DNA from: Comamonadaceae bacterium
Lineage (GTDB): Bacteria; Pseudomonadota; Gammaproteobacteria; Burkholderiales; Burkholderiaceae_C
Length of the DNA stretch: 47,437 nt
NCBI GenBank assembly: GCA_947476015.1
Contig: CANJOS010000004.1
Location: 1-47,437 of the forward strand
Reading direction: 5' to 3'
Part shown: positions 1,578 through 30,807 of the stretch, piece by piece
Layout of the letters: every line of letters begins with the position of its first letter
How positions within the stretch are numbered: the stretch's first letter is position 1
Translations under genes and position numbers: made by a program
The notes under the pieces: model-generated
Told to the model about the DNA's origin: nothing
What the model saw: only the letters and a program-made list of their open reading frames with translations
Databases searched by the model: none

Positions 1578-2330
1578 ATGTCAAACTTAGTCTCTATTGC
1601 CAAAGCCCCCTCTCAACGATTGCCAAGAAATGAACGTATTTCTAAGATCGTTGCTGTCACGCGTGCCATGCTCAACGAAATGGGCTATGAAAATATACTT
1701 ACCCTAGAAGTTGCGCAGCGTTGTGGTGTTTCAGAAGCAACCATTTACAAATACTTCGACAGCAAACGCGATTTACTTATTCGTGTGGCTGAACAGTGGT
1801 TTGAAGAATTGCTAGCTGAAGATCAAAGAAATCTGAAGCAAAGCAGTGCCAGAGATGCATTGCGGCACGTGGTTTGGCGAAGCTTGATGTTGGTCAGAAG
1901 AGAGCCCGCTTTGACTCGGTTTGTGCTGCTTGACTTGCGACCTGACCCCTCTTATCGATCTATGGCTGTTTTTGAACTCAATCGACATTTCACATCCCGA
2001 GTCACCGATGTCATCAAGCAAGGCATGAAGTCAGGTGAGTTGGGTACAGCAGTGCCATTGCCCTTGTTACGGGACATGATTTTTGGTTGTATTGAGCATC
2101 AAACATGGGCTTTTCTGCGAGGAGAGGGTGATTTTTCGGTAGACGATGCTACTGAAGGCATTGTTCGAGTCATCTATAACGGCGTTGCTTTGAAAGCAAA
2201 TCAGACATCGACACCAGATGCTTCACCTACCATCGATCGTCTTGAGAAACTGGCAGATCGATTGGAAAAATTGGCCCCCGCGCAAACAGAAAAAAAACCT
2301 CAGCGAACTCGATTGACTCGCGAATCATAG
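1578..2330 (+). CDS. TetR/AcrR-family transcriptional regulator
   Basis: A 250-residue protein with an N-terminal TetR DNA-binding domain at about residues 20-70. The helix-turn-helix reads [19 protein letters not shown], followed by the typical [12 protein letters not shown] helix. The C-terminal ligand domain resembles those of regulators in fatty-acid or acyl-CoA clusters but gives no clear inducer. A basic tail ([12 protein letters not shown]) ends the protein. The start is taken as the ATG at 1578; a TTG at 1566 is in frame. The last 31 bases overlap, tail to tail, the end of the acyl-CoA dehydrogenase gene on the other strand. It probably controls the surrounding catabolic operons, with an acyl-CoA or the free acid as ligand. 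Candidate operators are the palindromes at 300-333 and 10205-10232. Confidence 0.85.
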
Positions 2331-3433: not shown

Positions 3434-3468
3434 GGCTTGAGCGATCAAAGACTGACCTGCTTTTTAGC

Positions 3469-4647: not shown

Positions 4648-4717
4648 GATTGTCTCCTTAGACGGTTGATTTAATTTCACTGACAACGGTACATACTGCT
4701 TTTTCTAGTTATGACAC

Positions 4718-5773: not shown

Positions 5774-6645
5774 TAGACTCTTTCAATGTCTTTTTCCCCG
5801 AAAAGACCATGGGGCCTGATCATGAGAACCAACAAAATAATTCCAAAACTGGCAACTTCTTTGTAACCTGACCCTATGTAGCCACCCGCTAAATTTTCAG
5901 CCACACCAATGACAAGGCCTCCAATGGCAGACCCAAGGACGGAGTCCAAGCCCCCAAAAATAGCAGCTGGAAATGCGGCTATACCGACATGCCCCATGTC
6001 CAATCCCACGTGGTAAATATTGGCAAAAATCAAGCCTGACAGGCCAGCCAACATCGCCGAAATAACCCATCCCAGTCTGTACAAATGGCGAATTGACAAA
6101 CCCATCAGCATGGTGACTGTCGGGTCCGTTGCACAGGCTCGCATGGCAATGCCCATGAGTGTGAATCGTAAAAAAGCCCAAATACTGAAGCAAGCAAGGA
6201 GGTAGACAGCGATCAAGACGAGTTGCGCAGGTTGCAACATGACCCCCATGAATTCAAGTGTGGCAACTGAGGTGACACCTGGCATCCGCATGGGATCTGA
6301 ACCCCAAATCAAACTGATCAGAGATTTCAACAAAACAGACAGCGCGATGGTCATCATCACGATTGAAAATATCGGTTGACCCAGCATCGGACGAATAATC
6401 AATCGCTCAATGATGGCCGCAATGACCACTGAACTGAGCATGACACCCAAAATGACCATGGGTTGACTGCCGTCAGTTCTTAAAGCCACGGAATAGCCAA
6501 TAAATGCGATGAGCATCATGACCTCGCCCTGAGCGAAATTTAGAACCCGACTGACTTTGTAAATGATGGCAAATCCCATCGCAACAAGTCCGTAGAGCGT
6601 ACCCACTACCAAGCCTGACACGACCAAGCTGTTGAAGTAGTTCAT
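5773..6645 (-). CDS. Branched-chain amino acid-type ABC permease (LivH-like)
   Basis: A 290-residue integral membrane permease. The N-terminus (LVVGTLYGLVAMGFAIIYKV then LNFAQGEVMM) is diagnostic for LivH, and IFGGLDSVLGSAIGGLVIG near 230-250 is the conserved coupling loop. Its ATG overlaps the ligase stop codon in an ATGA arrangement (6642-6645). It works with the LivM-like protein and the two ATPases encoded on either side of the ligase gene. Confidence 0.9.
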   Translation of the reverse strand: MNYFNSLVVSGLVVGTLYGLVAMGFAIIYKVSRVLNFAQGEVMMLIAFIGYSVALRTDGSQPMVILGVMLSSVVIAAIIERLIIRPMLGQPIFSIVMMTIALSVLLKSLISLIWGSDPMRMPGVTSVATLEFMGVMLQPAQLVLIAVYLLACFSIWAFLRFTLMGIAMRACATDPTVTMLMGLSIRHLYRLGWVISAMLAGLSGLIFANIYHVGLDMGHVGIAAFPAAIFGGLDSVLGSAIGGLVIGVAENLAGGYIGSGYKEVASFGIILLVLMIRPHGLFGEKDIERV

Positions 6646-8495
6646 TGGGATCCATCTCCATATATTTGAGCAATTTCTGCTGCGAATTTCTTTTCAATGG
6701 CAGATCGCTTGACTTTTTGAGTCGCCGTTAATTCGCCGTCATCGTGATCAAGCTCTTTGTTAAGAATGACGAATTTACGAACATTCTCAACACGTGCAAA
6801 ACGACCATTGACGCGTTCGACGTCGGCCGAAACCAGTTTGTAAACTTCAGGTAATGCTGCCAGTGATCGATAATTTGTGTAAGCTAAACCATTCTCTTGG
6901 GCCCACTTTCCAACAACCTCTGGATCGATTTGTATGAGTGCCCCAACAAAATGCCTAGCTTCGCCAAGAATGATGGCTTCGTTAATGTAAGGTGATTCTT
7001 TGAGTGCGTTTTCAATTTCAGAAGGCGCTATGTTTTTTCCGCCACTGGTGATGATGATGGCCTTCTTGCGATCAATGATGCGAATTTCACCGCCTTCAAC
7101 CATTTCACCAATGTCACCCGTTCGAAGCCAACCATCCTTGTCGAGAACTTCGTCAGTCCCCTTTTCATCAAAAAGATAACCGGCAAACACGTTAGGTCCT
7201 TTGATCAATATTTCGCCATCGTGGTCGAGCTTGAATTCAATCTCATTGATGGGTTGTCCAGCCGCACCATGAACTCGCGAAAGGGCGTGCTGCGCAAAGG
7301 TGATTCCGCCACTTTCGGTTGAGCCGTAAACTTGATAAACGGGCAAACCCAAGACTTCGAAAAAACGAAGTGTTTCGGGTGATACAGCAGCGCCACCGCA
7401 AATCCTCACAATGGAGTAATCAAGCCCCATGTGTTTGATGGCACTCCGGAAAATCAGTGTTCTGTAAATAAAATTTTCAAGTTTTGACAAGAAGCCTTCA
7501 GAAGTTGGCCGAGCTTTATCGCGCTGAGCGAGCTTGGCGTAACTTCGTTCAAATACAAAGTTGAAAAGTTTTTGCTGATACCAGCGAGCTTCTTTGAGTT
7601 TGATGATTGCATTCAGGCGATGTTTTTCCCAGATGCGAGGCATGCCTAAAAACAAGGAGGGGCTGATTTCGCAAATATTTTGCTGCACAGTGTCAATAGA
7701 TTCAGCAAAATTGACCACACCTCCTGTTCGCAAGTGCATGGTAATAGAGCAAATCCTCTCTCCCACGTGGCATAAGGGTAAGTAGCAAAGGACTGAATAA
7801 TTGTGCTCATTGATGCCCCAGCGTTTGGCAAGAGAATCGGCAGAATGCAGAAGGTTGTGAGACGTTAATTGAGCGCCTTTAGGATGCCCGGTTGTGCCGG
7901 AGGTATAAACAATGACGCTGATTTGGTCGGTATTGATTTTTTGAAGGGATGATTGCCACCAGTTGCTGAGAGTCTCGATGGACACATCCTTGGAAATTTC
8001 GCAAACTTCCCTGAAGGACGATAGGCGATGGTCCCTGTAGTGAAGCATGCCCTTCATGTCAACACCAATAATTTTTTCAACGAGTGGCATACCGCCTTCA
8101 TCCGTACAAGCTTGGATGACTTTGTCTGTTTGCTCTTGATCACCGCAAACCAGAAAACGTGACTCGGAATGTCTCACCATGTATTGAACTTCAACCCAAG
8201 AGTTGGTTGGGTAAACACCCACCGAAATACCCCCTAGACCTTGAACAGCAATATCGGCAAATATCCACTCGGGAGTGTCTTCTGAGGAAATACACAAGCG
8301 ATCACCAGTTTTGAAACCTAAGGATTGAAGTCCATAGGCAAATCTCATGACGCTTTCTTCATAGTCTGCCCATGTGATGGTGTGCCATACACCTCTAATT
8401 TTTTCGCGCATAGCGATGTGGTGGGTCAATGTACTGGCGCGATATCGCAGAAGATGCGGCAGGGTGGTTTTCACCATTTCGTGAGTTTGGTTCAT
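6642..8495 (-). CDS. AMP-forming acyl-CoA synthetase (long-chain/FadD15-like)
   Basis: A 617-residue adenylate-forming enzyme: carboxylate + ATP + CoA gives acyl-CoA + AMP + PPi. The P-loop motif VIVYTSGTTGHPKG is at about 194-207, the A5 region has VYQVYGSTESGG, the A7 motif is WLRTGDIGE, and the C-terminal lysine region reads RIIDRKKAIIITSGGKNIAPS. Length and motifs fit the larger long-chain or bubblegum-type synthetases rather than aryl-CoA ligases of ~520 residues. The gene sits inside the transporter operon, overlapping livG upstream and livH downstream by 4 nt each. This suggests that uptake and activation are coupled and that the imported molecule is a carboxylic acid. The exact substrate cannot be read from the sequence. 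Confidence 0.9.
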   Translation of the reverse strand: MNQTHEMVKTTLPHLLRYRASTLTHHIAMREKIRGVWHTITWADYEESVMRFAYGLQSLGFKTGDRLCISSEDTPEWIFADIAVQGLGGISVGVYPTNSWVEVQYMVRHSESRFLVCGDQEQTDKVIQACTDEGGMPLVEKIIGVDMKGMLHYRDHRLSSFREVCEISKDVSIETLSNWWQSSLQKINTDQISVIVYTSGTTGHPKGAQLTSHNLLHSADSLAKRWGINEHNYSVLCYLPLCHVGERICSITMHLRTGGVVNFAESIDTVQQNICEISPSLFLGMPRIWEKHRLNAIIKLKEARWYQQKLFNFVFERSYAKLAQRDKARPTSEGFLSKLENFIYRTLIFRSAIKHMGLDYSIVRICGGAAVSPETLRFFEVLGLPVYQVYGSTESGGITFAQHALSRVHGAAGQPINEIEFKLDHDGEILIKGPNVFAGYLFDEKGTDEVLDKDGWLRTGDIGEMVEGGEIRIIDRKKAIIITSGGKNIAPSEIENALKESPYINEAIILGEARHFVGALIQIDPEVVGKWAQENGLAYTNYRSLAALPEVYKLVSADVERVNGRFARVENVRKFVILNKELDHDDGELTATQKVKRSAIEKKFAAEIAQIYGDGSQ

Positions 8496-9271
8496 GAACT
8501 CGAAACCCCCAGATAAGCTTCAATGACTTCTTGATTGTGAGAAATCTCTTTCGGTGTGCCAGAGGCGATGCGTCGACCAAAATTAAGGACATGAATACGA
8601 TCAGAAATGTCCATCACAACGTCCATGTCGTGCTCGATCATCAGGATCGTGGTATCCAAGGCTTCGCGAATGTCAAGAACGAAGCGCGCGATGTCCTCGG
8701 TTTCTTCTTGGTTCATGCCTGAAACCATTTCGTCCAGCAGTAAGAGTTTGGGGCGTATGGCCATCGCACGTCCGAGTTCGACCCTTTTTTGGAGTCCATA
8801 GGAGAGTTTGTCAACACGTTGATTCCGAATCTCTTCTATTTCAAGAAATTCAATGATCTCTTCGACTTGTTCTCGGGCATCACGTTCTTCTCTTGCGGTT
8901 CTTCCCAGATAGAAAGCGCACTCGAGTACGCCTGTACGCAGCCTAGAGTGGACACCCACCAAAAGGTTCTGAACGACAGTGCCGTGGCGGAAAAGTGCTA
9001 AATTTTGAAATGTTCGCCCGATGCCACGACCCGCAAGATCATGGGGGGCATGCTTCAAAAGGTTCGTCTTGTTAAATTCAATTTGACCACTGCTGGGGTC
9101 GTACAAACGACAAATCATGTTGAACAGGGTGGTCTTTCCAGCGCCATTGGGGCCAATGACACTGACAATTTCCCCTTTGCATACGTCAAGTGAAATATCT
9201 GACAGGGCTTGAACGCCACCAAAATTTTTACTCAAATTTTGAACGCTGAGAATTGGCTCTGATTGGGTCAT
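8492..9271 (-). CDS. ABC transporter ATP-binding protein (LivG-like)
   Basis: A 259-residue ATPase. Walker A is GPNGAGKTT, the LivG-specific GIGRTFQNLALF segment follows, the ABC signature is in LSYGLQKRVELGRA, Walker B is LLLLDEMVSGMN and the switch His is in MIEHDMD. The usual Pro after the Walker B Asp-Glu is Met. I use the ATG at 9271, which overlaps the livF stop as ATGA; an in-frame GTG at 9280 would add three residues. The 3' end overlaps the ligase start by 4 nt. It forms the cytoplasmic motor together with the LivF-like protein. Confidence 0.9.
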   Translation of the reverse strand: MTQSEPILSVQNLSKNFGGVQALSDISLDVCKGEIVSVIGPNGAGKTTLFNMICRLYDPSSGQIEFNKTNLLKHAPHDLAGRGIGRTFQNLALFRHGTVVQNLLVGVHSRLRTGVLECAFYLGRTAREERDAREQVEEIIEFLEIEEIRNQRVDKLSYGLQKRVELGRAMAIRPKLLLLDEMVSGMNQEETEDIARFVLDIREALDTTILMIEHDMDVVMDISDRIHVLNFGRRIASGTPKEISHNQEVIEAYLGVSSS

Positions 9272-10065
9272 GAAAGCCACCGCTTTCTGCGCCTGTAATG
9301 TTTAACATCGCGCATGGAACGGCGAGTGCTGGCCGTGCTCATGCCAAGGTAAAACTCTTGAATTTCGGTGCTGTTGTTGAGGGTTTGGGCCGTGCCGTCG
9401 AATACGACACGTCCACGTTCTAGGACGTAGCCATAATTCGCTACCGACAAAGCCAAGCGAGCATTTTGTTCGACAAGCAAAATAGAAATTCCTTGCACCT
9501 CACAAAGCCGAGTGATGATGCTAAAAATTTGTTCAACAATTTTCGGAGCCAAACCCAATGAGGGCTCATCTAGCATCAGTAACTTGGGGTCTGACATGAG
9601 GGCTCGCCCAATGGCCACCATTTGCTGTTGCCCACCAGAGAGGTAGCCAGCAATGCGCAATCGATGTTGGGTCAGGTCTGGAAAGACGTTATAGACCTGT
9701 TCAAGCTTGGCCTTTCTGGCGCTCAAGCCCTGTGTGGCGCCACCCATGATCAGGTTGTCCTCAACAGTGAGGTTGGCAAACAGACGGCGTCCTTCGGGGA
9801 CGTGTGCGATGCCGCTTCGAACAATCTCGTCAGAGGAAGCGCTTGACAAATCGGCGCCGTCAAACTGAATGTTGCCTGCGACCAACGCACCTTTTTCAGG
9901 CTGCAAAATACCTGAAATGGCTTTGAGCAAAGTTGACTTTCCTGAACCGTTTGCACCCAAGATGGTGATTACTTGAGCACGAGGCACTGTGAACGAGACG
10001 TCGCGCACCGCCTCGATGGCACCATCGTAGAAGATTTGTGCGTTGCTAACAGTGAGTTGAGTCAT
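9268..10065 (-). CDS. ABC transporter ATP-binding protein (LivF-like)
   Basis: A 265-residue ATPase and probably the first gene of the operon. Walker A is GANGSGKSTLL, the signature is LSGGQQQMVAIGRAL, Walker B is LMLDEPSLGLAP and the switch region is LLVEQNA. Beyond the usual LivF end (EFYLG) it carries a basic tail of about 25 residues (RDVKHYRRRKRW). I recall the same kind of tail in other betaproteobacterial LivF proteins linked to CoA ligases, so I do not regard it as a frameshift. The start has only a weak ribosome site. Confidence 0.9.
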   Translation of the reverse strand: MTQLTVSNAQIFYDGAIEAVRDVSFTVPRAQVITILGANGSGKSTLLKAISGILQPEKGALVAGNIQFDGADLSSASSDEIVRSGIAHVPEGRRLFANLTVEDNLIMGGATQGLSARKAKLEQVYNVFPDLTQHRLRIAGYLSGGQQQMVAIGRALMSDPKLLMLDEPSLGLAPKIVEQIFSIITRLCEVQGISILLVEQNARLALSVANYGYVLERGRVVFDGTAQTLNNSTEIQEFYLGMSTASTRRSMRDVKHYRRRKRWLS

Positions 10066-10251: not shown

Positions 10252-11049
10252 ATGAATGATCGTCCTATTTCAATGCCTCGCTCCTTGAGTGAAAGCAATG
10301 TGTTAATCATGGGCGGAACGGCAGGGGTTGGCTTGCGAACCGCCATTGAATTTGCACGCAAAGGCGTTGCCTGTATTGCCTTGGTGGGAAGAGATGAGGC
10401 TCGCGGCAATGATGCTTGCAATGCTGTTAAAACTGAATTTCCAGACATCAACATATTGTTTATTGCAGCTGATGCCAATGATTTGAAACAAGCAACTAAC
10501 GCAGTGATCCAAGCGCATCAGCACATGGGCCGCATTGACGTATTGGTTAATTCGACAGTGGCTGCATTTGTTCCCAGACTGTTGCATCAAACACCCCCTG
10601 AAGAAATCGCTGACATGCTCATCGGTCAGATGTTAGGCCCTTTATTGACCAGTCGTTTGGTGTTACCCATCATGCAGACTCAAAAAAGCGGTGTGATTTT
10701 GAACATCGCTTCAGATGCTGGAAAATTAGCCACTCCTGGTGAGTCTGTGATTGGTGCTGCCATGGCGGGAATTGTGATGTTCACCCGAACTTTGGCGATG
10801 GAGGCCAAACGAGATAGTGTCCGTGTAAATGTGATCACCCCTTCATTGATTGAAGGAACTTTGACATATGACCGAGTCATGCGGGATGGCTTTAGTGCCA
10901 AGTTGTTTGAGAAGGCTGCTCGAATGGCTCATTTGGGTTTAAGTCAGCCAGAAGATCTGGCGCATTTGATTGTCTTTTTGTCTAGTCCGGAGGCTTGCCG
11001 AATCACGGGTCAAGCAATTAGCCCTAACGGTGGTATTTCAGCGGCCTGA
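10252..11049 (+). CDS. SDR-fold protein lacking the catalytic Tyr and Lys
   Basis: A 265-residue protein with the Rossmann fold of short-chain dehydrogenases: GGTAGVG at 21-27 replaces TGxxxGxG, DVLVN at 96-100 matches the beta-4 strand, and SVRVNVITPSLIEGT resembles the RVNxxxPG region. Ser154 (NIASDAG) is at the catalytic Ser position. Thirteen residues on, where Tyr is expected, there is Ile167, and the Lys position is Met171 (ESVIGAAMAG in place of YxxSKAG). The usual NNAG is NSTV. Normal hydride-transfer chemistry is therefore unlikely, although the nucleotide site looks intact. It may bind a nucleotide or CoA ester as a structural, regulatory or atypical partner. It is first in the operon, 63 bases before the dehydratase genes. 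A second ATG at 10273 is possible; neither has a strong ribosome site. Confidence 0.75.
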   Translation: MNDRPISMPRSLSESNVLIMGGTAGVGLRTAIEFARKGVACIALVGRDEARGNDACNAVKTEFPDINILFIAADANDLKQATNAVIQAHQHMGRIDVLVNSTVAAFVPRLLHQTPPEEIADMLIGQMLGPLLTSRLVLPIMQTQKSGVILNIASDAGKLATPGESVIGAAMAGIVMFTRTLAMEAKRDSVRVNVITPSLIEGTLTYDRVMRDGFSAKLFEKAARMAHLGLSQPEDLAHLIVFLSSPEACRITGQAISPNGGISAA

Positions 11050-11112
11050 TAGAGGCCCCTCGTTTTCTGAGTCTATTTTTTTAAATCATTCTTTCAGCGG
11101 GAGATTTTCCTC

Positions 11113-12282
11113 ATGCACCCCATTCTTCAACAACTTGCAGCGGCAGCGGCCGACCCAGCGGGCACGGCCAAAGCTTGGAAAAAAGCGACTGGAGGCAAAG
11201 TGGTTGGCTCTTTCCCAATGCATTTCCCTGCAGAGGCCGTTCATGCGGCGGGCGCTCTTCCCGTGATTCTGCAAGAAAATGATGAGCCCATCACAGTGGG
11301 CCATGCCTCGATTTATCCTTTCTTTTGTGGTTACACCCGCAGTCTTGTAGATCAAGCAGTCAAAGATGAATTGGATTATGTCGATGCCATCATGTTTGGC
11401 GATCACTGTGTTCAAGTTCTCAGTGCTGCTGACATGATCCGTGTCCGCAAGCCTGAAATGAAGGTTCATTTTTATCAGTTAATTGCTTCATTGAAAGATG
11501 CTTGGTCTGAAGACAATGCCTTATCAGTCCTTCGTCGACTGACCACTGCTTTGGAGCAAACGCTCAATGTCACCATCACTGAAGACTCTTTGCGAAACAG
11601 CATTGCTCTCTTCAACGAAAATCGTCAGTTAATTCGCCACTTGTATGCTCAGCGGCGCGAAGGGTCTATCAAACTGTCCTCGATGGAAATGCAGCACATT
11701 GTCAAGTCCAGCATGATCATGGACAAGGCCACGCACAATGAATTGATCAAACAATTGACAAATGATTTGCAAGGAACGGGTGATAAACATGTTGGACGTA
11801 TCCCTGTCTATTTGTCTGGCCATCTTTGCCAAGCTCCCAAAATTGAAGTGCTGGCCATGATTGAGGAATGCGGCGCCTATGTGGTGGACGATGACCTCTA
11901 CCATGGCTGGCGATATGTCTCAACCGATGTCGACGACACCAGCGACCCATTGCGCGCATTGGCGCGTTGGTACATCGATCGAAATTGGAATGCCCCATGC
12001 CCAACACGTTTGGATCCCAAATCAGATTGGGATGAGTGGCTTTTGAATGCATCGCGCAACAGCGGGGCAATGGGCATGATTGTGCTCATGGCTAAATTTT
12101 GCGAACCCCATTACTTCCAATACCCTCGTATCAAGAAAACATTTGAATCCAATGGTGTGCCCCATCTCTTGGTAGAAACAGAGCACGAATTGGTAGCTGG
12201 CGGAAACATTCGAACTCGTGTTGAATCTTTCGTTGAAATGATCAAACGTCAATCAGAAAAATCACTGGCCGCCTCGGCCTAA
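11113..12282 (+). CDS. 2-hydroxyacyl-CoA dehydratase / benzoyl-CoA reductase family, C/HgdB-type subunit
   Basis: A 389-residue member of the BcrC/BadD/HgdB family; BcrC proteins are of similar length. With its partner it should bind the acyl-CoA and a cubane-type iron-sulfur cluster. Candidate ligands are Cys72 (YPFFCGYTRS), Cys99 (FGDHCVQVL) and Cys330 (KFCEPHYFQYP), the three positions conserved in the family. DDDLYHGWRY (259-268) and the end motif ETEHELVAGGNIRTRVES (355-372) are also typical. A GGGAG precedes the ATG. The B-type subunit follows after 16 bases. The reaction may be syn-elimination of water from (R)-2-hydroxyacyl-CoA through a ketyl radical, or reduction of an aromatic or unsaturated CoA ester; the sequence alone does not decide. 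Oxygen sensitivity is expected from the family. Confidence 0.85.
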   Translation: MHPILQQLAAAAADPAGTAKAWKKATGGKVVGSFPMHFPAEAVHAAGALPVILQENDEPITVGHASIYPFFCGYTRSLVDQAVKDELDYVDAIMFGDHCVQVLSAADMIRVRKPEMKVHFYQLIASLKDAWSEDNALSVLRRLTTALEQTLNVTITEDSLRNSIALFNENRQLIRHLYAQRREGSIKLSSMEMQHIVKSSMIMDKATHNELIKQLTNDLQGTGDKHVGRIPVYLSGHLCQAPKIEVLAMIEECGAYVVDDDLYHGWRYVSTDVDDTSDPLRALARWYIDRNWNAPCPTRLDPKSDWDEWLLNASRNSGAMGMIVLMAKFCEPHYFQYPRIKKTFESNGVPHLLVETEHELVAGGNIRTRVESFVEMIKRQSEKSLAASA

Positions 12283-12298
12283 ACTAAGGAGTCCCACC

Positions 12299-13651
12299 AT
12301 GAATACAGTCGTTAATGAAATGCCACCTGTGAAGCGCGCCAATCGCTTGCAAGCGACCAAATTGAACAACAAAATGGTCACCGAATACTGGGAGGACCTG
12401 TTCACTGCCAAAGAGCAAGGCAAGATGGTGTGTTGGTATGAAGGGGTGGCAATAAATCCCATTTTACAAGCCGCAGGTTTGGCTTGGTGTCATGGAGAAG
12501 CCGCTGCCGCTTTGCTGGCTGCGCGCAAGGAAGAAGGTCCCGCGCAAAAGGCTGCGGAGGAGGCTGGTTACGATCGTGAATTGTGCTCCTATGCAAGAAC
12601 TCACATTGGGTGTGGTGTCCTTAGCCAGCGCTCAACTGAGGAGGCTAAAAATTTAATGCTGCCAGAGTCTCAGGACGCACGACGTGGACTTGCTGCACGC
12701 ATTCCCTTGCCCGACATGATCATCAGCGCCTACCCATTTTGTAGCACTGGGCAACAGTGGGACGAGGTACTGTATAAAACGTTTGGGAAAAAAGTGCCCA
12801 TCTTCAATATTTCTTTGCCTTGGATCTGGGGAAATAATCCGTCTGCTAAATACATGAGTGGGCCTGAATATCGAGAATCGGTAGATTTCTTGGTTCACCA
12901 ACTTCGCGAATGCATCAAGTTCATTGAGGGGGTCACAGGTAAAACATTTGACCATGATCGGTTGCGTGAGATCATGGGCTATGTGAAGACTGCGGCTGAG
13001 TTAAAAGTTGAAGCACAGCGCTTGTGCAAAGCACGTCCTTCACCCGCAACGTTTTTTGAATGGACTAACAGCATTGCCCCTGTCAATTTCTTGCCTGGCG
13101 GTCCTGAGATTGTTGATTATTTTCAAAAGAAAAAGGCTGAAATTGAAGAGCGCATCACGCTGGGTGTAGGTTCAGTCCCCGATGAAAAGTACAGGCTTTT
13201 CTGGGACGGCATCATGAACTGGAACAAAATCGGATGGCTTTCCGACAAGTTTGCTGGATTTGATGCATGCATGGTTGCGGGTCGTTACACGCACATGGGG
13301 TTTTGGCACGAAACTGAGGTCATCGATTTGCGTGACCCCCTGGATGGCATGGCTCAGAATTTTCTCACTTGTCCCATCAGTATTTCTGCACCCCAGGTTA
13401 TTGAAAAAGTGATTGAACATTGCGAATATTACGAAATCGACGGGCTTGTCCTGCATGGCGCAAGAACCTGCCGGGCGTTTTCTTACCCTCAGTTCTTACT
13501 GGCGGATGCCGTTGGAAAACGCATGGGAATGCCTGTAGCGATGTTTGAAGGTGACATGGTTGATGAATCTTTTTACAAAGACGAATTGGTCAACAGCCGA
13601 GTTGAAGCCATGCTAGAACAAATTGAAGCCAGACGTCAGAGAAATCGCTGA
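12299..13651 (+). CDS. 2-hydroxyacyl-CoA dehydratase / benzoyl-CoA reductase family, B/HgdA-type subunit
   Basis: A 450-residue partner of the preceding subunit, close in size to BcrB. Probable cluster ligands are Cys96 (LCSYARTHIG), Cys148 (YPFCSTGQQW) and Cys391 (GARTCRAFSYPQ). The block RLFWDGIMNWNKIG, followed by ACMVAGRYTHMGFW, matches the BcrB-type DGxxNW and YTxxG region better than classical HgdA. The C-terminus IDGLVLHGARTCR is the usual strand and Cys loop. Cys105 (HIGCG) is an extra cysteine near the first ligand. A clear AAGGAG precedes the ATG. In known enzymes this pair receives electrons from the activator ATPase, encoded next. The pair could be a dehydratase or a reductase. 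Confidence 0.85.
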   Translation: MNTVVNEMPPVKRANRLQATKLNNKMVTEYWEDLFTAKEQGKMVCWYEGVAINPILQAAGLAWCHGEAAAALLAARKEEGPAQKAAEEAGYDRELCSYARTHIGCGVLSQRSTEEAKNLMLPESQDARRGLAARIPLPDMIISAYPFCSTGQQWDEVLYKTFGKKVPIFNISLPWIWGNNPSAKYMSGPEYRESVDFLVHQLRECIKFIEGVTGKTFDHDRLREIMGYVKTAAELKVEAQRLCKARPSPATFFEWTNSIAPVNFLPGGPEIVDYFQKKKAEIEERITLGVGSVPDEKYRLFWDGIMNWNKIGWLSDKFAGFDACMVAGRYTHMGFWHETEVIDLRDPLDGMAQNFLTCPISISAPQVIEKVIEHCEYYEIDGLVLHGARTCRAFSYPQFLLADAVGKRMGMPVAMFEGDMVDESFYKDELVNSRVEAMLEQIEARRQRNR

Positions 13652-13672
13652 GTTTTAAAAGGAGCTTTGGCC

Positions 13673-14605
13673 ATGAGTGCATACGTTCTGGGCATCGACT
13701 TTGGTTCCACGACAGGTAAGGCTGTGATTCTCAACCAAGAGGGTGAGGTACTGGCCGCCAGCGTGTCACAAAAAGGTGCTGTGAGTGATGAAGGCGTGAA
13801 AGTTGCATTGCAGATGGCATTTGCAGAGGCCGGTATTCAACCTACAGACATTCAGCGTTGTGTTTCTACGGGTTATGGACGCCGTATGCTGGACATGGCA
13901 GACCGGACCATCACAGAAATTACTTGTCATGCAAGGGGTGCCGTTGCCATGGTGCCCGAAGCACGCTTGGTGATTGACATTGGAGGCCAAGACAGCAAAG
14001 TCATTGCGGTGGATGAGTCGGGCTTGGTCACCCAATTTGCAATGAATGACAAGTGCGCAGCGGGTACAGGTAAATTTTTGGAAGTGTTGGCCCGTGCCGT
14101 CAATGTAGAACTTGACGAGATGGGGGCTGCAGCCTTGTCTGCCACTGAATCCGTGAAAATCACCAGCATGTGTGCAACATTTGCAGAAACAGAAGTCATT
14201 GCATTGCTGGCTGAAGGAACAGACAAATCTGTTGTTTTGGACGGCGTTCATGCGGCTGTTGCCAATCGAATCGTGGGCTTGGTCAGCCGCGTAGGTCAGC
14301 GCATGCCCATTGTGATGACTGGGGGAGTCGCTCGAAACATCGCAGCGGTGAAACACATTGAGATGTCACTTAAGGCCCCTCTCATTATTCCGTCTCATCC
14401 GCAAATTGCTGGTGCATTAGGCGCTGCGCTTTTTGCGCTGGATGATTTGCGTCAACTGGGGCCTAGTCAGCGCTTGCAAGTTGATTTGATTGAAAAAGAA
14501 GTTGAGCGCCTTGCGTTGTTAGGCGAGACCTGTGCGCCTGCCTGCGCAGCTAAGGCTGTTCCCATTCAATTTAAAACAAAAAAAATGGCCCCACACGAGG
14601 TCTAA
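13673..14605 (+). CDS. BadF/BadG/HgdC-type activator ATPase
   Basis: A 310-residue ASKHA-fold ATPase that injects single electrons at very low potential into the dehydratase/reductase. The phosphate motif GIDFGSTTGK is at the N-terminus, IGGQDSK and TGGVARN are the other nucleotide loops, and the two family cysteines that hold one [4Fe-4S] between two subunits are Cys128 (NDKCAAGTG) and Cys167 (TSMCATFAE). They lie almost where HgdC has them (127 and 166). Only one such gene is present, so a homodimer is implied, unlike class I benzoyl-CoA reductase with two different ATPases. The protein is about 45 residues longer than HgdC; the tail contains CAPAC at about 287-291. The ATG at 13673 has AAAAGGAG upstream; the TTG at 13667 is rejected. 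Confidence 0.92.
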   Translation: MSAYVLGIDFGSTTGKAVILNQEGEVLAASVSQKGAVSDEGVKVALQMAFAEAGIQPTDIQRCVSTGYGRRMLDMADRTITEITCHARGAVAMVPEARLVIDIGGQDSKVIAVDESGLVTQFAMNDKCAAGTGKFLEVLARAVNVELDEMGAAALSATESVKITSMCATFAETEVIALLAEGTDKSVVLDGVHAAVANRIVGLVSRVGQRMPIVMTGGVARNIAAVKHIEMSLKAPLIIPSHPQIAGALGAALFALDDLRQLGPSQRLQVDLIEKEVERLALLGETCAPACAAKAVPIQFKTKKMAPHEV

Positions 14606-14623
14606 ATTTAACGGAGTCTTCAG

Positions 14624-15775
14624 ATGTCAGGTCCCTTAAAGGGCTTCAAAATCATTGAGATGGCAGGCATGGGACCAGGGCCTTTCTGCGGCATGTTGTT
14701 GGCTGATATGGGGGCCGATGTGGTGCGAGTCGAGCGACTGACTGTGGGTGACCGGGGGATTGATTTTTTGCCGCAATTTGATTTACTCAACCGCGGTAAA
14801 CGCTCGGTGGCCATTGATTTGAAAACTGAAGAGGGCAAGTCGACTCTTCTTAATTTGATGGGTCACGCTGATGCGCTGATTGAGGGGTTTCGCCCAGGGG
14901 TGATGGAACGACTTGGTTTAGGCCCTGTTGAGTGCCAAATCCAAAATCCAAAGTTGGTGTATGGGCGAATCACAGGATGGGGTCAAGAGGGGCCTTTGGC
15001 ACAAGCTGCGGGCCATGATTTAAATTACGTTGCCCTGTCCGGTGCTGTTCACAGCATTGGCCCTGCAGCAGGAAAGCCCAGTGTGCCCTTGAATCTCATT
15101 GGTGATTTTGGCGGCGGCGCTCTGTATTTGGCAATGGGTATTCTTGCGGCAATTCTTGAAGCGCAAAAGTCCGGCCAAGGACAGGTTGTGGATGCTGCCA
15201 TGGTTGATGGCGTGGCCAGTTTGATGACCATGCAATACGCTTTGAAACAAATGGGCGCATGGAAAGGTCCTCGAGGGCATAACTTGCTCGATGGGGGAGC
15301 CCCCTTTTATGACGTTTATGAAACTGCTGATGGAAAGCATATTTCAGTGGCACCCGTTGAACGGCGATTCTATGAAGAGTTGATAGAGCGCATTGGTTTG
15401 AAGGACTCGCCGCTTCCAAAGCAAAACGATCCCAAAGGATGGTCTGAACTTCGTGAGCACTTAAGTGAAGCTTTCAAAAAACGGACACGCGCTGAATGGT
15501 GTGAGTTACTAGAAGGAACGGATGCATGTTTTGCACCTGTCCTGGACATGATGGAGGCGACGCAACACCCCCACAGTATTGAAAGGCACGTTTACACTGA
15601 AATTGATGGCGTTGTTCAACCCAATCCGGCGCCGCGTTTTAGTCGAACGCCATCAGAAATTAAGCATGCTGCACCTGCGATGGGTGCCAACACCAGAAAT
15701 GTTTTTCTAGATTGGGGTTTCTCTGAATCGGTAGTCGACCATTTGGAAGCGAAGGGGTTCATCGCGGGTCAGTAG
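14624..15775 (+). CDS. Alpha-methylacyl-CoA racemase-like (CaiB/BaiF family)
   Basis: A 383-residue class III CoA-transferase-fold enzyme. The start (LKGFKIIEMAGMGPGPFCGM) and LLADMGADVVRVER are typical of AMACR. The racemase acid/base pair is visible: His131 in AGHDLNYVALSGA and Asp161 in IGDFGGG, 30 residues apart as in the mycobacterial enzyme (His126/Asp156), with Glu233 in YDVYETADG. This favours 2-methylacyl-CoA epimerisation through an enolate over CoA transfer; CoA transferases lack that His. GGAG precedes the ATG. It is the last gene of the operon, 18 bases after the activator. A racemase implies a substrate with a 2-methyl branch, of which only one epimer suits the acyl-CoA dehydrogenase. 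Caution: related CaiB proteins are often misnamed, and a transferase role like FldA is the main alternative. Confidence 0.85.
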   Translation: MSGPLKGFKIIEMAGMGPGPFCGMLLADMGADVVRVERLTVGDRGIDFLPQFDLLNRGKRSVAIDLKTEEGKSTLLNLMGHADALIEGFRPGVMERLGLGPVECQIQNPKLVYGRITGWGQEGPLAQAAGHDLNYVALSGAVHSIGPAAGKPSVPLNLIGDFGGGALYLAMGILAAILEAQKSGQGQVVDAAMVDGVASLMTMQYALKQMGAWKGPRGHNLLDGGAPFYDVYETADGKHISVAPVERRFYEELIERIGLKDSPLPKQNDPKGWSELREHLSEAFKKRTRAEWCELLEGTDACFAPVLDMMEATQHPHSIERHVYTEIDGVVQPNPAPRFSRTPSEIKHAAPAMGANTRNVFLDWGFSESVVDHLEAKGFIAGQ

Positions 15776-15865: not shown

Positions 15866-16999
15866 ATGACTAACCCTCAAAACATACGTTACGGCATCAT
15901 CGGCTGCGGCATGATGGGCCAAGAACATTTGCGCAACATTGCGCTGTTGCCAGGTGCCACCGTCACCCGTATTTTTGAACCCGACGACACCATGGCAGCG
16001 GCCAGTTTGGCCTTCGCAAAGGGAAGCCAGCGCGCATCAAGTTTGGCAGAGGTGGTCACGGCCCAGGACGTCGATTGTTTGCTCATTGCCAGCCCCAACT
16101 TCAGGCATGCCGAACAAATGGCGGAAATCGCTTTGCTCCGTCCTTTGCCGGTCTTGCTTGAAAAGCCTGCCTGCACTTCGCTGGAAGATTTGAAAAAACT
16201 TGCCCAACTCCACCGCAATTACCCAGCCCCCATTTGGGTGGCCATGGAATACCGTTACATGCCCCCTGTCACAGCCTTGACAGAGGAGGCGCACCATCAA
16301 CAGAACACGGGCCCTGTCACCATGCTTTCCATTCGCGAGCATCGGTTTCCGTTTTTGGTGAAGGTGGGCGATTGGAACCGTTTCAACCGTTATACCGGTG
16401 GCACCTTGGTTGAAAAATGTTGCCATTTCTTCGACCTCATGCGCCATATATTGAAGAGCGATCCTGTTCGCGTTTACGCTTCAGCCTCAGTGGCCCACAA
16501 CCATATGAATGAATCTTATCCAGACGGTGTGCCCGATATTTTGGACAACGCTTACGTCATCGTTGATTTCCAAAGTGGCCAGCGTGCTTTGCTCGAGTTG
16601 TGTATGTTTGCTGAGGGGGCAAGATACCAAGAAGAAATTTCGGTGGTGGGCGCCAACGGCAAAGTCGAGTGTTTTGTGCCAGGCCCCGGTCGGTTCTGGC
16701 CCGATCATTTGGGTGAGCCGCCCACACCCAAGGTGGTCATCAGCCCTCGCAATCCCAAAGGCCCCAGAGAGCTGGAGGTGCCCGTCGATCCAGTGGCCTT
16801 GGCTGCGGGGGATCACAACGGTTCTACCCTTTACCAACATCAACGTTTCAATGCACTGGTTCGGGGCCATGGTGCCCTTGAAGTGGGCTTGCAGGATGGC
16901 TTAACAGCGGTGTTAATCGGTTTGGCCGCTCAAGAGTCTGCTCGAACGGGCCAAGCCATTGACCTGACGCAAGGTGCTTACGCGCTGAGTCAAATTTAA
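15866..16999 (+). CDS. Gfo/Idh/MocA family oxidoreductase
   Basis: A 377-residue NAD(P)-dependent sugar or polyol dehydrogenase. The Rossmann motif GIIGCGMMGQEH is at about residues 9-20, LLEKPAC near 97-103 carries the EKP motif with the catalytic Lys, and GGTLVEKCCHFFDLM holds the conserved His of the substrate domain. The C-terminal alpha/beta domain is complete. Base composition changes here: this gene and those after it are richer in GC than everything to the left. It faces the CE15-like esterase tail to tail, overlapping by 4 nt. The sugar ABC operon starts 1 kb on, so it probably oxidises a sugar or sugar derivative brought in by that importer. The substrate is not recognisable. Confidence 0.85.
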   Translation: MTNPQNIRYGIIGCGMMGQEHLRNIALLPGATVTRIFEPDDTMAAASLAFAKGSQRASSLAEVVTAQDVDCLLIASPNFRHAEQMAEIALLRPLPVLLEKPACTSLEDLKKLAQLHRNYPAPIWVAMEYRYMPPVTALTEEAHHQQNTGPVTMLSIREHRFPFLVKVGDWNRFNRYTGGTLVEKCCHFFDLMRHILKSDPVRVYASASVAHNHMNESYPDGVPDILDNAYVIVDFQSGQRALLELCMFAEGARYQEEISVVGANGKVECFVPGPGRFWPDHLGEPPTPKVVISPRNPKGPRELEVPVDPVALAAGDHNGSTLYQHQRFNALVRGHGALEVGLQDGLTAVLIGLAAQESARTGQAIDLTQGAYALSQI

Positions 17000-17937
17000 A
17001 AGCCTGCCAGGAACTTCGCTGCTTGTTGCCAATCTGCTGGGGTCATGGCATGCCCGCCAGGACGCTCGACCCATTTCAAATTCGCTTCATGACCTGCCCA
17101 GCTGGCTTTCAGCATTTGGTGCATGCATTCGGTACCTTCCGGGTTAGCCCATAAATCGTCCTTAGCCTGTAGCAAGCACAAGCCTCTGGGGGCGATGGTT
17201 GCGAGCATTTGCCTAGGCGTGTCTAAGGCCACAATATTTTGAATGTGCACAGTTGTGTTGAGCTCAGGGCTGAGCCAATGCGGAAATGACTTGATCAATT
17301 CAGTCAGGCTCTCGGCACCCTGACGTTGAACTGCCAGAGACGCTGCACCTGCCGTGCCGCTGTTGTGAGAGATGACGGCGGCAGCACGTTGGTCGGTGGC
17401 TGCGGCCAATAAGGCGGCTTTACCGCCTCTGGAATGACCGACAAGGCCAAGGGCCGCCTGAATTTGGTCTGGCCTGTGTGCCTGTCTGATTTGCACCAAG
17501 GCGTCTAAGCTCCTTTGATAGCCCCAGGCCCAAGCTGAAATACAGCCTGTGGACAGCGATGGCCATTGAGCCCAGATGGGCCCTTTGCGCTGGCCGTTGT
17601 CAAAAGCCAATTCTGTTCGATTGAACCAAGCCAAGGCGCAACCCTCATTCAGAACGGCCTGAATGCCTTCCCCATGAATCACTTGAGGCCAGCAGCCGTC
17701 GCCACTTAACAAAATGGGAACCTGATCGCGGGAAAGGGGGGAGACCAAGGTCAAGGTCCAATTCAGAAGCTTGCCAACTCGGACTTGCCAAAGTGCCAAT
17801 TCCCGGTCTGCTTGCTGAAGCTGATGCATGCATTCAACCTGAACAGGTAAATCACTTGGCAAGGCTTGGCCAAAGAGGGCTAAAAGTTGTCCATCAAGGT
17901 CTGCTGCCTGGCTCAGGGTAGGGGGTAATTCATTCAT
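16996..17937 (-). CDS. CE15-like (glucuronoyl esterase-type) alpha/beta hydrolase
   Basis: A 313-residue alpha/beta hydrolase. The nucleophile elbow is VGHSRGGKAALLAAA with Ser169. It is followed by AVISHNSGTAGAA, SFPHWLSPEL and the acidic segment DDLWANPEGTE; His296 in PGGHAMTP would complete the triad. This order (GHSxxGKxAL, NSG, FPHW, DLWAxPxG) matches carbohydrate esterases of the CE15/acetylxylan-esterase-like group, which cleave esters of glucuronic acid or acetyl groups. Unlike most CE15 proteins it has no signal peptide and is short, so it should act in the cytoplasm on imported oligomers. It is divergent from the sugar ABC operon across 79 bases. Confidence in the hydrolase fold is high; confidence in the substrate class is modest. 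Confidence 0.75.
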   Translation of the reverse strand: MNELPPTLSQAADLDGQLLALFGQALPSDLPVQVECMHQLQQADRELALWQVRVGKLLNWTLTLVSPLSRDQVPILLSGDGCWPQVIHGEGIQAVLNEGCALAWFNRTELAFDNGQRKGPIWAQWPSLSTGCISAWAWGYQRSLDALVQIRQAHRPDQIQAALGLVGHSRGGKAALLAAATDQRAAAVISHNSGTAGAASLAVQRQGAESLTELIKSFPHWLSPELNTTVHIQNIVALDTPRQMLATIAPRGLCLLQAKDDLWANPEGTECMHQMLKASWAGHEANLKWVERPGGHAMTPADWQQAAKFLAGF

Positions 17938-18016
17938 TATTCGTACAAACGCTTAGTCAGAAGGGTGCCTTAACAGGCTATAGTCGCGCGATGCCCAAAT
18001 TATCAAGGAGATCCCC

Positions 18017-19288
18017 ATGAAAACCGTTCATATTCGCCCATTGGTTCTGATGCTTGGAATGACCATTGCTGCAAGCGCTGCGATGGCCAGCGAAATTCGT
18101 GTAATGTGCTACCAAGACGGCGTGGAGTGCGAAGTCACGGCTGAAATTGCCAAGCGCTTTGAAGCGTTGAATCCTGCCACCAAGGTGATCATTGACACGG
18201 TTCCTTATAAGTCCATTGTGGAGCAGTTGCCAGTTCAGTTGGCTGCAGGCCAAGGCCCTGACATTGCCCGGGTGACCGACTTAGGTGGTCTGTCCAAATA
18301 TTACATGGACATTGCCCCCAATTTGAAAAATCGCAAATACTGGGATGACAACTTTGGTGCCACCACACCTTGGCTGCGCCCCAGTGCTACCGACAAAGGC
18401 ATCTACGGCTTCATGTCGCAGCTCACCATGACGGGCCCCTTTGTGAACAAGACTTTGTTTGAACAAGCCAAGGTGGCCATTCCCGGCCCCAAGGCGACTT
18501 GGGATGACTGGATCAAAGCAAGTACACAAGTTGCCAAAGCCACCCAAATCAAAGCAGGCAGCGCATGGGACCGTTCCGGTCACCGTTTCGCAGGCCCCGC
18601 CATCAGCTACGGCGCCAAGATTTTTGATGCCAAGGGCAACCCTGTCATTGATGCAGGTTACAAAAATGCAGTCACCAAGTTTGTGGGATGGCACAAAGAT
18701 GGCAGCATGATGCGCGAAGTGTGGGCTGGCACAGGCGGTTCTACCTACGCTTCCTCCATCGATGAATTCGTCAATGGCAACGTGGCCATGGTGTTGGCCG
18801 GTAGCTGGCAAATCGGTAACCTGCAAAAGAAAGTCGGCACCAATTTTGATTGGGTCGCTGTGCCCAACCCCTGCGGTCCTGCCGCTTGCTCAGGCATTCC
18901 TGGCGGCGCAGCTTGGGTGGCTTTGAAAACCAGCAAGTCGCCTAAAGAAGTGGCGGCATTCTTGGACTTCATGGCCTCTGAGACAAATTACGCTGAGTTC
19001 ACAGCCAAGACCAATAACATTCCTGCACATGCAGGCTTGGCGAAAAAAGGCATCAATTACACCAACGCAGAACCCGCAGCCAAAGCCGCTTTAGGCGTTT
19101 TCAGCGGTGGCGTGTCTCAATTGGCACCTGTGGCCTATGCTTTCCAAGGTTACAAATTCAACCGTGCCATCATGTTGCCAACGGTGACCCGTGTCACGCA
19201 AGCCATCGTAGGTGAAATGAGCACTGACGACGCTGTCAGTAAAATCAACACAGACATGCAGGACGCTCTGAAGCAAGCTCAACAGTGA
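18017..19288 (+). CDS. Sugar ABC transporter substrate-binding protein (family 1)
   Basis: A 423-residue periplasmic binding protein. The signal peptide MKTVHIRPLVLMLGM...AMASEIRV is likely cleaved after AMA. The mature part has the family 1 pattern: EVTAEIAKRFEALNPATKV, then VEQLPVQLAAGQGPDIARV, with a Trp/Gly-rich centre. The C-terminal half has FVNGNVAMVLAGSWQIGNL, a hallmark of sugar-binding proteins. AAGGAG precedes the ATG. It is the first gene of an importer operon with two permeases and an ATPase, and codons are strongly biased to a few synonyms, as expected for an abundant protein. A CxDGVEC pair near the N-terminus could form a disulfide. The sugar may be an alpha-glucoside or related oligosaccharide, given the GH31 gene. 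Confidence 0.9.
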   Translation: MKTVHIRPLVLMLGMTIAASAAMASEIRVMCYQDGVECEVTAEIAKRFEALNPATKVIIDTVPYKSIVEQLPVQLAAGQGPDIARVTDLGGLSKYYMDIAPNLKNRKYWDDNFGATTPWLRPSATDKGIYGFMSQLTMTGPFVNKTLFEQAKVAIPGPKATWDDWIKASTQVAKATQIKAGSAWDRSGHRFAGPAISYGAKIFDAKGNPVIDAGYKNAVTKFVGWHKDGSMMREVWAGTGGSTYASSIDEFVNGNVAMVLAGSWQIGNLQKKVGTNFDWVAVPNPCGPAACSGIPGGAAWVALKTSKSPKEVAAFLDFMASETNYAEFTAKTNNIPAHAGLAKKGINYTNAEPAAKAALGVFSGGVSQLAPVAYAFQGYKFNRAIMLPTVTRVTQAIVGEMSTDDAVSKINTDMQDALKQAQQ

Positions 19289-19312
19289 TCTTGGTTTGAG
19301 CGCTTCCATGGG

Positions 19313-19350
19313 GGTGTGGGCATGAACAATGACCCACACCTTTGTTTTTT
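19313..19350 (+). terminator. Rho-independent terminator-like hairpin after the binding-protein gene
   Basis: GGTGTGGG (19313-19320) pairs perfectly with CCCACACC (19333-19340) across a 12-base loop, and TTTGTTTTTT follows (19341-19350). It lies inside the operon, so it is best read as a partial terminator or mRNA stabiliser that raises binding-protein expression over the permeases. Confidence 0.7.
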
Positions 19351-19361
19351 GGGGACCACCT

Positions 19362-19397
19362 ATCGCCCTGACTTGTCAGTTGGGGCGATTTATTTTT
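19362..19397 (+). terminator. Second hairpin with U-tract, directly before the permease start
   Basis: ATCGCCC (19362-19368) pairs with GGGCGAT (19383-19389); TGAC/GTCA can extend pairing within the loop. TTATTTTTG follows and runs straight into the permease start at 19399. It could act as a second terminator or, because no ribosome site is visible between it and the ATG, as a structure controlling translation initiation. Confidence 0.5.
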
Positions 19398-19398
19398 G

Positions 19399-20376
19399 AT
19401 GCGACTCATAGCTTTCTTTTTTAATTTGTTAGAGCCATTTTTTAGGCTTGGACAAAAGTTGCTGGGCCTGCAGCGTGTGGGCTGGCTTTTTGTCACTCCC
19501 AATTTGGTCGTGTTTGGGCTCTTCTGCTTTTTGCCTATCTTGATTAACTTGGTGTATGCCGTGACGGGAGGGGTCAATTTGATGCCCTTCACGCGGCCTT
19601 TCACTGGTGCAGAGAATTTTGCAATTCTCTTTCAATGCGACAACTACCTAGATTTATCGACTTGCCGCAAAGATATTTTTTGGCGCGCTGTTTTCAACAC
19701 TCTGAAGTTCAGCCTGATTCAGGTGGGACTCATGGTGCTGTTGTCCTTGGCCACTGCCTTGGTGCTCAATCGAAAAATCATCGGGCGTGGTTTTTGGCGT
19801 GGTGTATTTTTCTATCCGGTGTTGTTGTCACCCGTGGTGGTGGCGCTCATCTGGAAATGGTTGTTGCAAAGCCAAGGGGCTTTCAATGCAGGCTTGGTGG
19901 CGTGGGGTTCTGCGCCCATTGAATGGCTCACCGATTCAGGCTGGGCGTTCTTCTGGACCGTGTTTGTATCAATCTGGGCACACATGGGTTTTTACACACT
20001 CATTTTGTTAGCTGGGCTGCAAGCCATTCCCAAAGATTTGTATGAAGCTGCTGAAATGGACCGTGCAAGTCCCTGGCGCACATTGACGCGCATCACCTTG
20101 CCTTTGCTCATGCCGAATTTGATTGTGGTCCTGGTGTTGGCTGCCATCCGTGCAGTCCAGGTGTTTGATGAAGTGTTCGTGCTCACAGGCGGCGGTCCTG
20201 GTTCTGCTACCACTTTCATTGTTCAGTTCATTTACCAAACTGGTTTTGCTGAGCAAATACATTTGTATGGTCTGGCTGCGGCTGCATCTTTGGCATTGGC
20301 ATTTTTCTTAATCATCCTCACGCTGGCGCAGCTCCGCTTAACGCGCGCTAGCGAAGCAGGACAGAAAGTGCGTTGA
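19399..20376 (+). CDS. Sugar ABC transporter permease (MalF/UgpA-like)
   Basis: A 325-residue inner-membrane permease with about six hydrophobic segments. The EAA loop reads YEAAEMDRASPWRTLTRITLPLL, the contact point for the ATPase. The N-terminus has the GWLFVTPNLVVFGLFCFLP segment of MalF-type subunits. I use the ATG at 19399; the TTG before it is in frame. No Shine-Dalgarno sequence is visible, and the ATG follows the U-tract of the second hairpin. The next permease begins two bases after the stop. Confidence 0.88.
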   Translation: MRLIAFFFNLLEPFFRLGQKLLGLQRVGWLFVTPNLVVFGLFCFLPILINLVYAVTGGVNLMPFTRPFTGAENFAILFQCDNYLDLSTCRKDIFWRAVFNTLKFSLIQVGLMVLLSLATALVLNRKIIGRGFWRGVFFYPVLLSPVVVALIWKWLLQSQGAFNAGLVAWGSAPIEWLTDSGWAFFWTVFVSIWAHMGFYTLILLAGLQAIPKDLYEAAEMDRASPWRTLTRITLPLLMPNLIVVLVLAAIRAVQVFDEVFVLTGGGPGSATTFIVQFIYQTGFAEQIHLYGLAAAASLALAFFLIILTLAQLRLTRASEAGQKVR

Positions 20377-20378
20377 AC

Positions 20379-21428: not shown

Positions 21429-21467
21429 CGGTTTTATTACTGAATTTTTTCTGTCAGGTTGTGCATT

Positions 21468-30805: not shown

Positions 30806-30807
30806 AA

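Follow-up and report, generated by a model that had tools for sequence, protein, structure and literature searches.

The operon and its host genome

A five-gene operon was examined within a 47,437-nucleotide stretch of DNA, here called the window (contig CANJOS010000004.1, positions 1 to 47,437, assembly GCA_947476015.1), from a Comamonadaceae bacterium whose metagenome-assembled genome (MAG) is a 2.8-Mb draft, 79% complete. Five co-directional open reading frames lie on the plus strand at 10252–15775, exactly where a preliminary description of the sequence had placed an operon, with intergenic gaps of 63, 16, 15 and 18 bases. They encode, in order, a protein like the short-chain dehydrogenases/reductases (SDR; 10252–11049), the beta subunit (11113–12282) and the predicted catalytic alpha subunit (12299–13651) of an HGD-D radical enzyme, a BcrAD/BadFG-type activase (13667–14605, listed start TTG) as the predicted ATP-driven one-electron donor, and an alpha-methylacyl-CoA racemase (14624–15775). 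Pfam recognized an SDR in the first gene, PF06050 in the beta and alpha genes (231 and 189 bits, cut-off 28), PF01869 in the activase (217 bits, cut-off 31.5) and PF02515 in the fifth gene (308 bits). Both HGD-D subunits and the activase thus exceed the cut-offs and belong to the superfamily of benzoyl-CoA reductases (BCR) and 2-hydroxyacyl-CoA dehydratases (HAD), which are known for anaerobic chemistry with two main reactions. Throughout the 79%-complete MAG, PF06050 matched these two genes only and PF01869 matched once, on the operon activase; the claim of one activator therefore stands, and a second one elsewhere in this MAG was rejected.

A separate clade of radical enzymes

Judged by phylogeny and profiles, the operon enzyme appears to be a third clade of BCR/HAD radical enzymes, outside the BCR/MBD, BZD and HadBC groups. 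The trees took in rows of the BZD, MBD, BCR and HadBC-like groups and further Bacillota rows. For both alpha (20 of 59 rows) and beta (21 of 64), a 100/100 branch split the family from all of these, and a quick activase tree set it apart at SH-aLRT 97 (20 of 43). Furthermore, a family alpha profile gave members at least 577 and non-members at most 219. The tree sets excluded alpha matches under 330 residues and beta matches under 300, as well as partial MbdO/BzdO rows of alpha and BzdN/MbdN rows of beta, for which genome copies 97–99% identical were used instead. The BCR label rests on the one TIGR02260-positive member scanned (L014), its clade mates being assumed to follow, and the BZD, MBD and HAD labels were set by identity to solved structures. 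The earlier claim that the subunits lie outside characterized groups, with no nesting inside a known dehydratase or reductase clade, thus holds for the groups placed in the trees, in which FldBC, HgdAB and LcdAB are not placed by name.

The alpha subunit scored 167 bits on the HadB equivalog model, 133 on BcrB and 72 on BzdO (HadB and BcrB cut-offs 750 and 487, both far higher), and the beta subunit 173 on BcrC, 169 on BzdN and 168 on HadC; neither reached any equivalog cut-off, be it of class I benzoyl-CoA reductases (TIGR02260/TIGR02263 or bzdN/bzdO) or of HadB/HadC, and neither fell inside the HadBC clade. A BcrB from the host's order (L014) scores 775, and a near-identical MbdO copy (L064) also stays under them. 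The alpha subunit had been described as BcrB-like; this identity was rejected because profile, sequence and fold all place it closer to HadB. Its three cysteines for an open [4Fe-4S] cluster and the adjacent glutamate (Glu67) were kept in all 20 family rows aligned, within the motifs CWYEG, WCHGEA, CSTGQQWD and ARTCRA. The beta subunit has four cysteines at HadC-like positions. Of the six cysteine ligands described for the [8Fe-9S] double cubane of BzdN (PMC11971306), none of the 18 family rows shown has Cys36 or Cys263, and a double-cubane enzyme of the BZD type was rejected on these two missing ligands.

A search with the alpha protein found 577 relatives at E ≤1e-20 among 7998 candidates scored; the best 120 of these are 56–91% identical, so the family is not a chance match. 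A pattern scan of a genome-contig collection (84,980 species) returned 13 loci with the module, which is also present on five plasmid records, including two from Sphingopyxis macrogoltabida; the carriers were found by differing routes, and related carriers are not independent. Among 399 genomes of the host's order no other alpha exceeded 31% identity (matches at E ≤1e-20), and in a Gammaproteobacteria sample the module appeared in one of 274 genomes at E ≤1e-60, the host itself, so it is rare there. In an unannotated Paracoccus region examined, the match fell on the racemase. The order beta-alpha-activase recurs among the loci mapped, with the racemase next in the operon's own subgroup; none of the other mapped loci had the exact order SDR-beta-alpha-activase-racemase, so that a repeated gene order holds for this core and not for all five genes. 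No description of this clade was found in the open-licence literature searched, as judged by titles and abstract openings, some of the searches being directed at structures, strains or myrtenic acid instead.

Other features were observed beside the relatives. A Hydrocarboniphaga MAG (G408; L030, L050, L062) holds two diverged module copies, each accompanied on its contig by an activase gene and a homologue of the SDR. APH-type phosphotransferases, a type found among hydroxyacyl-CoA kinases, lie near the module on Rhodococcus and Rhodobacteraceae QY30 plasmids (L036, 15538–16572; L038, 6483–7514 and 24261–25313). On a Sphingopyxis plasmid (L037, 21385–23547) a molybdopterin-dependent oxidoreductase adjoins the alpha gene; such an enzyme is also listed for the genomic island of Castellaniella defragrans (PMC4109377).

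The SDR and racemase partners

The first gene had been labeled SDR-like; Pfam agrees, and the label overlooked a missing catalytic dyad. The protein keeps a TGxxxGxG-type nucleotide motif (GGTAGVG) and carries Ile and Met in place of the YxxxK dyad of classical SDR dehydrogenases. The dyad was missing in all 15 linked SDR rows aligned (13 from Pseudomonadota, of which L024 is a fragment, plus Rhodococcus and Desulfallas): Tyr is replaced by Ile, Leu or Ala and Lys by Met or Ala, while SDA, one Glu and, where covered, the nucleotide motif are kept. The SDR adjoining the beta gene of genome G511 also lacks YxxxK. A mechanical motif check of neighborhood SDRs, which missed some linked copies such as that of Rhodococcus, detected the dyad in none of 14 linked-type proteins and in 9 of 19 others. 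The ten other SDRs without it comprised six of an HSGAARxG type and four of another; from length and neighborhood, the six were taken to be MrcC-like, MrcC being annotated as a 2,4-dienoyl reductase in PMC4109377. An SDR homologue occurred in all 15 genomes with the radical enzyme, at 33–35% identity in two Bacillota, whose unrelated SDRs come close to that level, and at 52% or more in the others.

SDRs of this dyad-less kind are known to move hydride to C=C bonds. A predicted model of the operon SDR (pLDDT 83.5) has the SDR fold, and VIA-align returned dozens of near-tied SDR chains, so the fold is uninformative on the reaction. AerF (PDB 6jh7), likewise dyad-less, was among the best sequence matches and tied by fold. 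The operon SDR is probably an ene-reductase-type partner, nearer to an ene-reductase than to an alcohol dehydrogenase, and a role as a catalytically silent subunit is possible.

Its nearest structure and its residues mark the product of the fifth gene as a genuine alpha-methylacyl-CoA racemase. The protein scored 388 bits against the solved enzyme (MCR), to which it is 50% identical, and at most 139 against CoA-transferases. The catalytic residues H126, D156 and E241 of MCR were kept in nine of nine cluster proteins aligned (the operon protein and eight more). This agrees with the earlier reading of a racemase His/Asp pair, and of a racemase instead of the FldA-type CoA-transferase; the latter was rejected on both scores and residues, and the CaiB-family gene encodes a racemase and not the FldA/HadA-type partner of HAD systems. 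A racemase was found in or near the clusters of the host, Mesorhizobium, a Janthinobacterium MAG, both Aromatoleum species, Azoarcus KH32C, Rhodobacteraceae QY30, Rhodococcus, Sphingopyxis and, at 35%, Desulfallas; none was found in the stretches examined of a Sphingomonadaceae MAG and the Nevskiales-type members.

Link to ring cleavage and hosts

A MrcE/BadI-type hydrolase was found at 86–94% identity in 11 of 15 carriers, the host MAG included (in G405 it is split over two contigs), and at 65–68% in Mesorhizobium and the Sphingomonadaceae MAG. In six of the 15 (G400, G401, G402, G407, G408, G409) it lies, at 90–94%, on the radical-enzyme contig within about 30 kb. The host copy (86%) is on a 7.8-kb contig (C120) with a BadH-like gene (71%), an enoyl-CoA hydratase (38%), MaoC and CoA-transfer genes. 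In a control on 399 genomes of the host's order, which scored at most six candidates per genome, the hydrolase matched at E ≤1e-90 in 19 and at 85% identity or more in two, the host and G352 (88%). The neighborhood comparison of ring genes was restricted to matches that covered half the query with 38% identity or more, and the labels 'mrcC?' and 'mrcB?' given there come from length and neighborhood alone.

The plasmid pAZKH of Azoarcus KH32C bears the module at record positions 358–366 kb, adjoining MMPL/DUF1302/DUF1329 genes, and about 27 kb away a BadI-like gene scoring 412 bits against a cut-off of 468 and a BadH-like gene scoring 326 against 431. According to PMC4109377, the nearest relatives of MrcE and MrcD of C. 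defragrans are KH32C proteins (88% and 85%), and mrcF and mrcC mutants do not grow on limonene. From gene order and best models we infer that the pAZKH genes encode these KH32C proteins, and the identity of the hydrolase with published MrcE relatives is drawn through KH32C. In the stretches examined of seven Nevskiales-type members (L026–L031 and L033, L026 being labeled Rhodospirillales), an AlkB-like protein was found in seven (in L031 at 78 bits to a solved alkane monooxygenase), a Zn-alcohol dehydrogenase in five and an aldehyde dehydrogenase in four; in Solimonas the aldehyde dehydrogenase lies further out, and a CoA ligase is often present. The module appears to go with alicyclic/cyclic-terpenoid ring cleavage and may serve an undescribed step in such breakdown. 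A catabolic route for a cyclic carboxylic acid had been proposed from the window, and the ring-cleavage genes in the host genome and near the module in relatives lend it support.

The carriers Solimonas, Sphingopyxis and Rhodococcus live aerobically; Desulfallas is strictly anaerobic. COX1-family genes were found in three of five carriers tested, the host MAG (two matches, one a fragment), Mesorhizobium and Solimonas, and not in the other two, the Bacillota Desulfallas and G511.

Divergent operon and flanking genes

A divergent minus-strand operon runs from 10065 down to 2300, and the names of its five Liv-type transport genes were read from the sequences. It encodes LivF-type (9268–10065) and LivG-type (8492–9280) ABC ATPases, an AMP-dependent acyl-CoA ligase (6642–8495) whose nearest model, FadD11, is scored far under its cut-off, LivH-type (5773–6645) and LivM-type (4718–5773) permeases, a LivK-type substrate-binding protein (3469–4686) with relatives in Mesorhizobium (L021), and an acyl-CoA dehydrogenase (2300–3448). 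The last, nearest to the acryloyl-CoA reductase and cyclohexane-1-carbonyl-CoA dehydrogenase models and under both cut-offs, is 74% identical to the one adjoining the module in Azoarcus KH32C. The earlier assignment of uptake, CoA ligation and acyl-CoA dehydrogenation to this operon was upheld, by Pfam for the ligase and dehydrogenase and by reading for the Liv-type genes. On the plus strand, a TetR-type regulator (1566–2330) is conserved along with the module, and a DUF7064/DUF7065 protein (521–1537) stands beside it at the cluster end.

Beyond the racemase lies an unrelated sugar cluster (15866–24652). Its Gfo/Idh/MocA oxidoreductase and its glucuronyl-esterase-like protein were recognized by Pfam; the genes that follow read from sequence as a sugar ABC transporter and glycosidase-like proteins. 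A separate cluster at 27838–35359, likewise read from sequence, holds a gene pair like a ring-hydroxylating dioxygenase, a LysR-like gene and further Liv-type ABC genes as a second set. More than 20 kb from the operon, a minus-strand pair (38351–42074) reads like indolepyruvate:ferredoxin oxidoreductase and could be a low-potential ferredoxin source for the activase.

Proposed function

The missing reaction is framed by the steps before it, methyl oxidation or import and CoA ligation, and those after it, hydration, oxidation and ring hydrolysis of a cyclohexene-carboxyl-CoA. It would make the 1-ene from a ring acyl-CoA in which that double bond is still missing, and dehydration, dearomatization and opening of a strained bicycle would all fit. 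Dehydration of a cyclic 2-hydroxyacyl-CoA is preferred because the activase, the beta ligands, the alpha profile and the fold are HAD-like. The explanation tentatively favored, at somewhat under an even chance, is that the clade takes part in breaking down an alicyclic carboxylic acid, probably a p-menthane-like one, by HAD-like electron-recycling chemistry. The acid would be imported by the Liv transporter and joined to CoA by the ligase, and its alpha carbon would be adjusted by the racemase and the acyl-CoA dehydrogenase. The activase would hydrolyze ATP and pass one electron via the beta [4Fe-4S] cluster to the open [4Fe-4S] site of alpha, beside which Glu67 may aid proton movement. The thioester would become a ketyl-type radical, lose its leaving group in HAD style and return the electron, giving a ring-unsaturated cyclohexene- or cyclohexadiene-1-carboxyl-CoA. 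The SDR, as an ene-reductase, would trim this product to a monoene, which would then be hydrated, oxidized and hydrolytically opened by MrcF/D/E-type enzymes. Of the substrates earlier suggested, a 2-methyl-branched or cyclic acid, the ring-cleavage genes favor the cyclic one, and an acyclic 2-methyl-branched acid is less favored. Steroid, 2-hydroxyisobutyrate and plain fatty-acid routes were dropped for want of support, and CoA esters of monocyclic dienes (terpinene, phellandrene) were rejected since they would need only a reductase, which explains the SDR and not the radical enzyme.

Several observations weigh against this explanation. In the alpha tree the clade groups with BCR/MBD at 97/89, flagged as a meeting of long branches, and in the beta tree it branches off before the split of HAD from BCR/MBD, so the two trees place it differently. 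In the family, alpha has Gly at the position of HadB Ser37, a catalytic residue, and QW replaces the KW of other rows, so the alpha pocket is not a HAD pocket; the unlabeled Bacillota rows L071, L086 and L090 likewise have no Ser there. A simple dehydratase would also leave the constant ene-reductase-like partner unexplained. As for the ring-cleavage link, the hydrolase is only 47% identical in Desulfallas and 39% in G511, which limits the link to proteobacterial members; in the host MAG the ring genes and the operon sit on different contigs; and G352 holds the hydrolase without an alpha relative at E ≤1e-20, so ring-cleavage genes also occur without the module. Finally, C. defragrans uses its mrc genes for limonene, and the table of its 63-gene island, in which several entries are hypothetical, names no HGD-D enzyme (PMC4109377); the module would therefore be dispensable for perillyl-CoA.

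A new aryl-CoA reductase, acting for example on p-cumoyl-CoA, would yield a cyclic dienoyl-CoA that the SDR reduces to cyclohexene-1-carboxyl-CoA for MrcF/D/E-type ring cleavage. It would explain radical enzyme and SDR together, as the constant SDR partner speaks for dearomatization, and would supply the MrcF-type substrate; the alpha tree groups the clade with BCR/MBD, and Liv-type importers fit aryl acids. However, this explanation is rather doubtful: there is one activase and not a pair, the beta-cluster ligands are HAD-like and the alpha profile and fold nearer HadB, the racemase and acyl-CoA dehydrogenase of the operon's subgroup point to an sp3 alpha carbon, and with oxidase genes in three of five carriers tested, dioxygenases might serve instead. 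A redox-neutral radical isomerase that opens a strained bicyclic terpenoid acyl-CoA by transient one-electron reduction, for example myrtenoyl-CoA to its isomer perillyl-CoA, is quite improbable. Radical opening of pinene skeletons is classical chemistry, and a neutral reaction would suit the single activase, give the MrcF substrate and, in line with the host range, be of use in the presence or absence of O2; the AlkB-like, Zn-alcohol and aldehyde dehydrogenase and ligase set of the Nevskiales-type carriers would make the acyl-CoA from a terpene methyl. Yet the bicyclic substrate is hypothetical, the SDR is left unexplained, the two papers found for myrtenic acid in the open-licence literature do not by title concern its bacterial degradation, and C. 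defragrans, with the island table noted above, uses bicyclic monoterpenes including alpha-pinene (PMC4109377). If true, it would be a third BCR/HAD reaction type, neither dehydration nor dearomatization, and would funnel pinene-type carbon into the ring-cleavage pathway, in O2-respiring bacteria as well.

The operon might instead serve an acyclic 2-methyl-branched acid, the ring-cleavage genes being a separate pathway of the same hosts, as the true racemase and the separate contigs of the host would allow. But ring genes track the radical enzyme better than the racemase does, for the Nevskiales-type stretches have the ring hydrolase with no racemase found, and the hydrolase shares the contig in six of 15 genomes; this account is held to be decidedly unlikely. 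That an ordinary characterized dehydratase or benzoyl-CoA reductase with its usual neighbors is encoded is very improbable, since the superfamily and fold in common are set against disagreement from the trees, the profile cut-offs and the gap in family alpha profile scores. In conclusion, the separate clade, its own active-site motifs, the dyad-less SDR and carriers with oxygen-respiration genes suggest an undescribed alicyclic or terpenoid catabolic step, and Aromatoleum diolicum, A. toluolicum, Solimonas aquatica, Azoarcus KH32C (plasmid) and Rhodococcus ruber (plasmid) are named carriers in which it may be tested directly.

Comparison with known systems

The mrc pathway of C. defragrans (PMC4109377) shares with the carriers relatives of the MrcE/BadI-type, MrcD/BadH-type, MaoC, CoA-transfer and acyl-CoA dehydrogenase proteins; its island table names no activase or racemase either. 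AerF, an SDR, is 27% identical to the operon SDR, and FabG-type chains score nearly equal, so no special kinship emerges. MCR (PDB 1x74, 8rmw) has its catalytic His/Asp/Glu in common with the operon racemase, and the operon context with a radical enzyme differs. Class I BcrBC/MbdON/BzdNO enzymes have superfamily and fold in common with the operon enzyme, as well as possible delivery of a cyclic dienoyl-CoA to BadK/H/I-like enzymes; the operon enzyme differs in having one activase instead of two, in lying outside their clades and in lacking the double-cubane ligand set of BzdN. Compared with HadBC and its activator (PDB 3o3m, 4eht), to which the operon subunits are 24–26% identical, the partners are an SDR and a racemase instead of the FldA/HadA-type CoA-transferase, and a single activase is shared by both systems.

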